The notes under the pieces: generated by a model | What the model was told of the DNA's origin: nothing | The model's database searches: none | The model's input: the letters and a program-made list of their open reading frames with translations, nothing else | Shown here: positions 7,409-9,490 of the stretch, piece by piece | Layout of the letters: every line of letters starts with the position of its first letter | Position numbering within the stretch: the first letter of the stretch is position 1 | DNA from: Sphingobacteriales bacterium | GTDB taxonomy: Bacteria; Bacteroidota; Bacteroidia; Chitinophagales; JADIYW01 | Direction: 5' to 3' | Assembly (NCBI GenBank): GCA_947460245.1 | Contig: CANHGL010000004.1 | Location: forward strand, 40,102-104,101 | DNA length: 64,000 bases | Made by a program: the position numbers and the translations under genes

Positions 7409-8455
7409 ATGGAGACCGTTAAAAGTTTTATTGATTTAAGAAGCGATACCGTTACGCACCCTAATGAGGGCATGAAGCAAGCAATGTTCGCTGCCAAGGT
7501 TGGAGATGATGTTTTTGGTGAAGATCCTTCAATCAATGAATTGGAAGCAAGGTGCGCTGCTATTTTTGGGCATGAAGCAGCCTTATTTTGTGCAAGTGGT
7601 ACTATGGCAAATCAGATTGCCATAAAGACGCACACACAACCAATGGATGAAATTATTCTGGATAAAACTGCTCATATTTATTATTACGAAACTGCAGGGT
7701 ATGCATTCCATTCCGGAGTTTCTGTGAAATTAGTAGATGGCAACAGAGGGATTATTACTGCAGCTCAAGTGGTTGAGAATATTCAACCGGATTTCGACTG
7801 GCTTCCTAAAACAAGTTTAGTTTGCCTGGAGAATACCGCTAATAAAGGAGGAGGAAGTTGTTATGAGCTTTCTTCTATCATAGAGATTAAATCAGTGTGT
7901 GATAAGCACGGACTAAAACTACATATGGATGGTGCTCGTCTGTTTAATGCAATTGTAGCAAAGCAGTATACGACTCTAGAGGTAGGGAGTTTATTAGATT
8001 CCATTTCTCTTTGTTTTTCTAAAGGATTGGGCGCTCCGGTTGGAAGTGTGCTTATTGGTAACAGAGCATTTATTCGTAAGGCGAGAAGGGTACGTAAAGC
8101 TTTTGGAGGCGGTATGCGTCAAGCGGGATTTCTTGCGGCAGCTTGTATGTATGCATTGGATAATAATATTCAGCGGCTAGCTCAGGATCATACTCATGCT
8201 CAGCAAATTGCTGATACCTTATCGAAGTTGACCTGGGTAGAAGCTATACTGCCTCCCGAAACCAATATCTTAATCTTTGAAATAAAGGAATCTGAAACAT
8301 CTGTAGATGAAGTACTTCTCTTTCTTAAGAATAATAATATTTTAGCCACTCAGTTTGGCAAACATCAGATTAGAATGGTTACCCATTTGGATGTTTCCGG
8401 GTATAGTATAGATAAGGTTTGTTCCGTTTTAACATCGTTCCAACAGCTTATGTAG
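7409..8455 (+). CDS. low-specificity L-threonine aldolase / GntG family PLP-dependent aldolase
   Basis: DLRSDTVTHPNEGMKQAM, DGARLFNA, CFSKGLGAPVGS. Confidence 0.92.
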   Translation: METVKSFIDLRSDTVTHPNEGMKQAMFAAKVGDDVFGEDPSINELEARCAAIFGHEAALFCASGTMANQIAIKTHTQPMDEIILDKTAHIYYYETAGYAFHSGVSVKLVDGNRGIITAAQVVENIQPDFDWLPKTSLVCLENTANKGGGSCYELSSIIEIKSVCDKHGLKLHMDGARLFNAIVAKQYTTLEVGSLLDSISLCFSKGLGAPVGSVLIGNRAFIRKARRVRKAFGGGMRQAGFLAAACMYALDNNIQRLAQDHTHAQQIADTLSKLTWVEAILPPETNILIFEIKESETSVDEVLLFLKNNNILATQFGKHQIRMVTHLDVSGYSIDKVCSVLTSFQQLM

Positions 8456-8513
8456 TACTTTCCACTACTTTTTTTTCATAAATCACACTATTTCAGACAT
8501 AAGTAACGAAGCC

Positions 8514-8521
8514 TATCTTTG
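8514..8521 (+). promoter_or_regulatory. -7 box TATCTTTG in repeat copy 1
   Basis: Exact TAnnTTTG match. Confidence 0.5.
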
Positions 8522-8527
8522 TTATAA

Positions 8528-8633
8528 GAAATTCATAAAAACCCCAACGGATCTGGAAAATGGAAATATAGAAACCCCCTTGAACATTTTCTACTTACAA
8601 AAAAAAACAGCACCAATGAGGTGCTGTTTTTTT
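8528..8633 (+). ncRNA. candidate small RNA, copy 1
   Basis: Starts ~7 nt after the -7 box, no ORF, internal stem TGGAAAATG/CATTTTCTA, ends in AACAGCACC-aatga-GGTGCTGTT-T(n) terminator. Confidence 0.4.
8606..8633 (+). terminator. intrinsic terminator (copy 1)
   Basis: AACAGCACC aatga GGTGCTGTT followed by T-run. Confidence 0.8.
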
Positions 8634-8751
8634 GTTCCGGAAGAATAATTAAAGATGAGATATATATTCAGGAAGTTCCAACAGCTTATGTAGTACTTTC
8701 TACTACTTTTTTTTCATAAATCACACTATTTCAGACATAAGTAACGAAGCC

Positions 8752-8759
8752 TATCTTTG
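8752..8759 (+). promoter_or_regulatory. -7 box TATCTTTG in repeat copy 2
   Basis: Exact TAnnTTTG match, same relative position as in copy 1. Confidence 0.5.
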
Positions 8760-8765
8760 TTATAA

Positions 8766-8868
8766 GAAATTCATAAAAACCCCAAACGGATCTGGAAAAT
8801 AGAAATATAGAAACCCCCTTGAACATTTTCTACTTTCAAAAAAAAGCACCTTGTTGGTGCTTTTTTTT
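8766..8868 (+). ncRNA. candidate small RNA, copy 2
   Basis: Paralogue of copy 1; ends in AGCACC-ttgtt-GGTGCT-T(n) terminator. Confidence 0.4.
8838..8868 (+). terminator. intrinsic terminator (copy 2), probably bidirectional with the convergent subunit III gene
   Basis: A-run + GCACC ttgtt GGTGC + T-run, near-symmetric. Confidence 0.8.
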
Positions 8869-9490
8869 ATCCAAGAAGTATAAAGAAAAATAATAGATAT
8901 ATCCAGGTAATGCCTAAAAAATGCCAAAAAATAGAAAACAATCGAAGCTGTGATTGTATTATGGGGTCTGTAAAGTAAACAACTGATGTAGCATAGTCTT
9001 TTAGTAAGGGATGACTTTTTGATAAAAAGAATACAAGAAAAACCATTGCTCCTAGTACGTGTATAGCATGAATCCCTGATATCACATAAAGATAGCTTGA
9101 GGAGTGATGGGAGAGGGTGTATCCGGAATTATATAATGCCAGCCATCCAGTAACCTGACCGACCATAAATAAAATGCCCAATCCTAGAATAAGTAGCAAG
9201 GCTGATTTATATTGATTAAATCTATCTTCGGTATAATAAAGCTGAGATAATACTAAAGTTAAGCTACTACCCATAAGTACAAGCGTGTTCCAATAAAATA
9301 AAACGGGAAGCCTTACAGGCGCTTGCTGGTTTTTTATACTGCTAAAAAAATATAAAATGGTTAGTCCAATAAACATAATGGATATCCCACTAATACTGAA
9401 GTATAGCAACCATTTATAGTTTCTGTATTTCTTTTGGATAATACCCTCGTATATTTTTGTCTCATCTCTGGTTTGTAGCTTACCTTCCAT
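8867..9490 (-). CDS. cytochrome c oxidase subunit III-like (heme-copper oxidase subunit III) protein
   Basis: SGIHAIHVLGAMVFLVFF and FWHFLGITWIYLLFFF. Confidence 0.85.
   Translation of the reverse strand: MEGKLQTRDETKIYEGIIQKKYRNYKWLLYFSISGISIMFIGLTILYFFSSIKNQQAPVRLPVLFYWNTLVLMGSSLTLVLSQLYYTEDRFNQYKSALLLILGLGILFMVGQVTGWLALYNSGYTLSHHSSSYLYVISGIHAIHVLGAMVFLVFFLSKSHPLLKDYATSVVYFTDPIIQSQLRLFSIFWHFLGITWIYLLFFFILLG

Follow-up and report, generated by a model that had tools for sequence, protein, structure and literature searches.

A response regulator-linked family of candidate small RNAs in a Sphingobacteriales bacterium, with a tandem pair between ltaE-like and cox3-like genes

The genome of a Sphingobacteriales bacterium (G000, a 2.21 Mb draft) very probably encodes a real family of small RNAs (sRNAs) linked to a response regulator (RR), its members being candidates recognized from sequence. 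Two of them lie in tandem in the window, the 64,000-nt stretch of DNA analyzed here from positions 40102-104101 of contig C4, where a preliminary description had proposed a pair of paralogous sRNA genes. The candidate-sRNA reading is supported by the sequence analyses reported below, and the finding appears larger than that description had it.

Results

Tandem duplication of a convergent-gene gap

The two units occupy the gap between convergent genes that we take, from reading of their protein sequences, to encode an ltaE-like low-specificity threonine aldolase and a cytochrome c oxidase subunit III-like protein (cox3) (Table 1). Direct-repeat comparison confirmed that a segment of ~195 bp is doubled in direct orientation with its copies 238 bp apart: positions 8437-8547 and 8675-8785 match over 111 nt at 99% identity (spacing 238), and the repeat carries on as 8537-8609 and 8776-8848 at 93% identity. 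A recount of the differences preceding the terminators returned the three substitutions and one 1-nt indel originally reported. Nineteen nucleotides at the end of ltaE also belong to the repeat, and comparison with the sequence beyond 8869 shows positions 8634-8674 to be a decayed duplicate of the cox3 3' end (a score matched by 0 of 2000 shuffles). The duplicated unit is the entire intergenic region together with both gene ends, ltaE and cox3, and this content points to a tandem duplication that arose locally and covered the gap in full. Promoter and body of the window copies are 97-98% identical, whereas the cox3 remnant is changed by ~30%, which fits selection or gene conversion acting on the RNA unit.

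Table 1. Features of the duplicated gap and its flanking genes, in window coordinates.
Feature	Position	Strand	Basis and remarks
ltaE-like low-specificity threonine aldolase gene (presumed)	7409..8455	+	ORF; TAG stop overlaps operator
Duplication unit, copy 1	8437..8674	+	ltaE 3' end, RNA unit and decayed cox3 3' end
Promoter module 1, copy 1	8452..8521	+	GTAGT-N7-ACTAC-N5-TTTCA-N9-CTATTT-N20-TATCTTTG, 0 mismatches
Candidate sRNA, copy 1	8528..8633	+	Start inferred from -7 box, end from terminator
Motif copy A, sRNA copy 1	8529..8545	+	AAATTCATAAAAACCCC; leave-one-out profile
Motif copy B, sRNA copy 1	8562..8579	+	GGAAATATAGAAACCCCC; predicted unpaired; profile
Bidirectional terminator hairpin, copy 1	8601..8633	both	Perfect arms 8601-8614/8620-8633
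Decayed cox3 3'-end remnant	8634..8674		Repeat alignment
Duplication unit, copy 2	8675..8915	+	ltaE 3'-end remnant (8675-8693), RNA unit and genuine cox3 3' end; right edge approximate
Promoter module 1, copy 2	8690..8759	+	Pattern match, 0 mismatches; GTAGT half-site present
Candidate sRNA, copy 2	8766..8868	+	-7 box, terminator, covariance model
Motif copy A, sRNA copy 2	8767..8783	+	Profile
Motif copy B, sRNA copy 2	8801..8818	+	AGAAATATAGAAACCCCC; fold prediction and profile
Bidirectional terminator hairpin, copy 2	8838..8868	both	Perfect arms 8838-8850/8856-8868; directly after cox3 stop codon on minus strand
Cytochrome c oxidase subunit III-like gene (cox3; presumed)	8867..9490	-	ORF and relatives; convergent; 3' end within unit 2

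The -7 box TATCTTTG was found at both 8514-8521 and 8752-8759, and each copy ends in an intrinsic terminator composed of a hairpin with perfect arms and a T-run. As had been noted, the element contains no ORF (none of at least 60 aa), and the single short reading frame that starts with ATG in copy 1 (atg gaa ata tag) has been lost from copy 2. The sequence AUAGAAACCCCC could serve as a probe for discrete RNAs starting near 8528 and 8766.

The proposal that RNA structure is under constraint held weakly at the terminators and failed for the body. Between the two terminators the arms change from CAGCACC/GGTGCTG to AAGCACC/GGTGCTT, a single compensatory double change from C-G to A-U that keeps the pairing; these terminators may also serve the neighboring convergent genes. 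The body hairpin is at chance level. Stripped of their terminators, the bodies, for which a stem TGGAAAATG/CATTTTCTA had been suggested, fold no better than shuffled sequences (z = 0.13 and 0.18); the pair closing the loop of that stem is broken in copy 2, and a third paralog folds otherwise. The promoter and a repeated, unpaired motif are under constraint, not the structure of the body.

When 60 relatives were searched for DNA similarity to the window element, homologues were confined to G000. The ltaE-cox3 gap of the congener G001 holds no such element, and that of G006 is occupied by a different gene. The body of the window RNA is not conserved at the DNA level in other congeners, indicating that the sRNA family is narrow or fast-evolving.

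A third paralog beside a response regulator gene

Searching the genome's own DNA returned two matches on contig C38. One is the promoter before a small secreted-protein gene (locus L035, position 1959); at the other (L035 3234-3409), a complete RNA unit lies between an RR gene and a PAS/HisKA_3 kinase operon whose first gene encodes a FIST sensor. The RR (L035 2601-3227) combines Response_reg and GerE domains and is of the NarL/LuxR type. From operator to terminator, the third paralog (C38:3296-3409) aligns with both window copies, and this occurrence of the same promoter, body blocks and terminator at an unrelated locus makes a paralogous sRNA pair, as first proposed, the best reading of the window. 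A covariance model built from the three G000 copies, the C38 paralog included, recovered that paralog with an E-value of 1e-18 and the window copies with 1e-23 and below. Beyond this genome, the same model gave two weak matches to further RNAs in G001 (contigs C119 and C11), most others being terminator-only or chance.

The RR is present in one copy in G000 and in five intact copies and one broken copy in G001 (L084, contig C116), where the tandem paralogs are 65-73% identical. Among 61 genomes, the RR subfamily at ≥61% identity is confined to G000 and G001. Interspersed among the G001 copies on C116 are their operators, genes for PAS/HisKA_3 kinases and genes for single-domain receivers. Small secreted proteins (each ~110-135 aa) also recur beside sRNA/RR loci (L035 2123-2503, L084 7906-8298 and, on the minus strand, L245 846-1247); two of these three match little beyond a Por_Secre_tail-like domain.

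A rigid promoter module shared by RNA units and response regulator genes

Both window copies, the C38 unit and genes of the RR locus have in common a rigid 70-bp promoter layout (module 1), GTAGT-N7-ACTAC-N5-TTTCA-N9-CTATTT-N20-TAnnTTTG. Not counting the second window copy, which also has it, 10 distinct promoter sites of G000 and G001 share it with identical spacing, and it precedes RNA units, RR genes, a regulator with a cyclic-nucleotide-binding domain and secreted proteins with T9SS tails. We searched 61 genomes with the 22 positions running from ACTAC to the -7 box, omitting the left GTAGT half-site and allowing up to three mismatches, and obtained four matches in G000 and seven in G001, compared to 0 and 1 for the reversed control. 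At 0-2 mismatches, the only match beyond these two genomes was an isolated one in G031, with two mismatches; a 3-mismatch site in G006, located before a secreted-protein gene, looks genuine. By itself, GTAGT-N7-ACTAC showed no enrichment over control, and specificity lies only in the full module, not in the dyad alone.

In Chryseotalea, the module geometry appears 86 nt after the RR with 4 of 27 mismatches, the next best site in 20 kb having 10. When the best 80 GTDB loci of RR relatives were examined for dyads, TGTAG-N9-CTACA was located within 300 nt of the RR stop codon in two Flavobacteriaceae loci, one Nitrospirae locus and one Kapabacteria locus, and these four loci contain five of the six such dyads found in the 80. 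This co-occurrence of dyad and RR suggests that the RR may bind the GTAGT-N7-ACTAC operator. Three loci of Flavobacteriaceae and Kapabacteria (L146 10700, L160 4460 and L191 5272) have, downstream of the RR gene, a TGTAG-N9-CTACA dyad together with non-coding sequence that includes a terminator-like hairpin; such stretches are possible RNAs of unrelated sequence in the same position.

A repeated motif behind two promoter types

Alignment of the G000 and G001 RNAs brings out a 16-nt core, RGAAACAUARAAACCC, that is present in one to five copies per RNA in terminator-ended candidates, at least seven of them in G000 and six in G001. Four of the G000 members come in addition to the window pair and C38, and the sixth G001 member is at L315 10336. 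The 13-nt core AAYATARAAMCCC has seven exact matches in the 2.2 Mb of G000 (two in the window and one each in C2, C3, C7, C10 and the FIST leader). All seven are non-coding, six residing in RNA units and one in the FIST leader; the C10 match, within an intergenic RNA unit, overlaps just a predicted antisense ORF. At one mismatch, G000 yields 59 matches versus 47 for the reversed pattern, most of them in coding sequence at about control frequency.

A leave-one-out motif profile detected the motif in all 12 RNAs scanned, with 0-1 of 500 shuffles scoring as well, and gave two or three hits in 7 of the 12; by eye, the C7 and C10 RNAs contain four to five degenerate copies. Searches with the motif itself contributed to its definition, so that members are partly motif-found, and independent support for the family comes from features outside the search, namely promoters, additional motif copies and terminators. 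C7 and C10, each located through one motif match, also present further motif copies, a second promoter module, a -7-like box and a terminator. Several family terminators could serve flanking genes.

This second module, AATAAGnATGTCACA-N44/45-TTTACA, is likewise rigid and is found upstream of C2, C7, C10, G001d and G001e. One RNA motif hence stands behind two unrelated promoter types, and the C3 member has no recognized promoter. The C-runs of the family RNAs are predicted to be 63-100% unpaired. In the same sense, the motif is also carried by a few leaders only: those of the FIST sensor gene (31 nt before the ATG), of C2:19907 (15 nt before the ATG) and of the secreted-protein gene at L035 2123. 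It was not seen by eye in the upstream regions of the RRM genes.

Individual members differ in architecture. In the RNA candidate at G000:C10:8219-8298 (L321, minus strand), some five GAAACATARAAACCC-like units can be made out by eye in tandem, three of them above the profile threshold, and this RNA is the strongest case of a decoy-like family member. The transcript candidate at L250 1290-1545 (G000:C2), upstream of a large secreted-protein gene, has a 27-aa ORF (MKQSIIINILQNFYKAMIITEDGAGRY), then four degenerate copies of the motif and a terminator. A 49-aa ORF starting MTKLRKIIRDIVRQQFELQQ lies at L084 5187-5335 (G001:C116), its 3' UTR bearing the sRNA motif and a terminator.

Across 399 genomes of the order, the 16-mer occurred at control level outside G000, G001 and G008, and the G008 matches proved to be a different terminator-linked repeat, not the family. 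That repeat (L259 758-775 and 1500-1517; L251 1501) consists of a hairpin followed by GAAACATAAAAACCCC, reads GGGGTTTTTATGTTTC before a terminator on the other strand, and is present in three copies in one draft genome. In viral contigs, 51 single 16-mer matches were judged to be chance.

Comparison with known RNA families

An Rfam scan of the window returned nothing above gathering threshold save two tRNAs, and no such match was obtained in seven family loci. Matches to the window element itself were sub-threshold and terminator-driven (e.g. GcvB, 28.8 bits on the other strand) and were discarded as evidence of membership; the csRNA model gave 18.0 bits against a gathering threshold of 57 (E = 9). 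These results suggest a previously unlisted, multi-locus family in the Bacteroidota, unmatched in Rfam.

The CiaRH csRNAs of Streptococcus comprise several similar RNAs of 51-202 nt with fixed-spacing RR-operator promoters and terminators, some in tandem (PMC3091779, PMC8186281). Like them, the present family has several similar terminator-ended RNAs behind one type of RR promoter and a conserved unpaired stretch, and its RR would also govern protein genes. Unlike the csRNAs, with their anti-SD and anti-AUG stretches, it displays one to five repeated 16-nt motifs and belongs to another phylum, and its promoters hold GTAGT-N7-ACTAC or AATAAGnATGTCACA instead of the csRNA operator NTTAAG-N5-WTTAAG.

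The resemblance to the Gac/Rsm and BarA-UvrY/Csr systems (GacA with RsmX/Y/Z, CsrB/C) includes a LuxR-type RR, a Gac dyad, TGTAAG-N6-CTTACA, similar to TGTAGT-N7-ACTACA here, and several sRNAs with a repeated unpaired motif that is also present in target leaders (PMC4950607). The family shows the general architecture in which a single RNA bears the same unpaired motif more than once. In contrast with those systems, the motif is not GGA, and the family has neither CsrA nor a known partner protein. CsrA (PF02599) was absent from all 31 genomes searched, in which positive controls matched, and repeated GGA of the Csr/Rsm type is not conserved between paralogs, the conserved repeat being RGAAACAUARAAACCC. 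Judged by the absence of CsrA and the non-GGA motif, the family is not a Csr member.

Within the Bacteroidota, the FopS/GibS family of Bacteroides thetaiotaomicron comprises multi-copy paralogous sRNAs linked to an RRM protein, FopS being described as an antisense repressor of a SusC leader with sigma-ABfr/PM2 promoters (PMC11697453). The present family is set apart from FopS, as described there, by its proposed RR regulon and internal repeats (PMC11697453). G000 has two genes for RRM proteins, as candidate partners.

Discussion

Taken together, an unpaired motif that is repeated within the RNAs, presumed RR control and the presence of the same motif in some leaders resemble titration of the Csr/Rsm kind. 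Each window copy would be transcribed independently into a ~100-nt non-coding RNA, one of a multi-copy family. The NarL/LuxR-type RR encoded on C38 would bind GTAGT-N7-ACTAC and activate the RNA promoter coordinately with its regulon, producing RNAs that carry one to five unpaired RGAAACAUARAAACCC copies and end in a strong terminator. By capturing an RNA-binding protein (possibly either of the two RRM proteins), the repeated motif would draw it away from the copies of that motif to which it otherwise binds in mRNA leaders such as that of the FIST sensor operon, following CsrB/RsmZ logic with another motif and another protein; the tandem copy in the window would raise dosage. The duplication, shared fixed-spacing promoters, repeated motif, family, terminators and absence of CsrA are read from the sequence itself, whereas transcription, RR binding, protein titration and the identity of the protein we infer. 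Each window RNA has only two motif copies, one of them weak, which is few for a decoy, and we consider RR-activated sRNAs that titrate an RNA-binding protein to have close to an even chance of being the correct reading. More tentatively, and with the balance against it, CsrA-less Bacteroidota may possess a functional counterpart of Csr/Rsm in which decoy RNAs, both dispersed and tandem and with one to five RGAAACAUARAAACCC sites, are activated by the RR and by one or more further activators, and titrate a translational regulator, perhaps an RRM protein, from mRNA leaders.

The main rival to titration is base pairing with mRNAs, in which the unpaired ACAUARAAACCCC of the RR-controlled sRNAs would be a redundant seed for translation-initiation regions, CAU acting as anti-AUG and CCCC as anti-G-rich sequence. 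The motif is unpaired, as csRNA seeds are (PMC3091779), its CAU-N5-CCCC has an anti-start layout in which a C-to-U variant, UAU, could wobble-pair with AUG, and multi-copy sRNA families with this mode of action, such as FopS, occur in the Bacteroidota (PMC11697453). Nevertheless, no perfect 11-mer complement of the motif falls at a start codon in G000: GGGGTTTTTAT has six occurrences there, four in the RNA genes themselves and two elsewhere, and no start codon is visible at either of the latter. The four to five tandem motifs in C7 and C10 are unusual for a single seed, and the leaders hold the motif in the same sense rather than its complement. We therefore regard base pairing as rather unlikely, if clearly worth weighing.

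Promoter-like and terminator sequences of the ltaE/cox3 gap could have been copied as non-coding debris of a gene-end duplication, yielding no functional RNA; the unit does take in both gene ends, the bidirectional terminators abut the cox3 stop codon and the body has no stable structure. Debris leaves the paralogs at unrelated loci, the fixed-spacing promoters and the repeated motif unexplained, however, and it is the non-RNA part that decayed while promoter and body stayed nearly identical, making this reading improbable. Slightly lower still do we place the possibility that the units are RR-activated promoters for neighboring genes, producing leader RNAs or attenuators: even though promoter module 1 also drives genes for the RR and for secreted proteins, and the C2 and G001b RNAs hold a short ORF (27 and 49 aa), the window units face the convergent cox3 gene and meet a strong terminator at once, with no plus-strand gene directly after. 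As for a mobile or REP-like element, suggested by the many scattered copies and by the terminator-linked repeat of G008, the copies share promoters and short motifs but no common bordered full-length sequence, and the tandem pair arose by local duplication with flanking gene ends; we find it scarcely credible.

Post-transcriptional control in the Bacteroidota is poorly mapped outside Bacteroides, and the family offers testable handles: its two promoter codes are clear, a candidate activator is named, and the repeated motif is short. The recurrence in several phyla of a LuxR-type RR with TGTAG-N9-CTACA just downstream of its own gene indicates that the regulatory logic may exceed the RNA family. 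Titration of an RNA-binding protein by these sRNAs could reveal a CsrA-independent titration circuit in the Bacteroidota.
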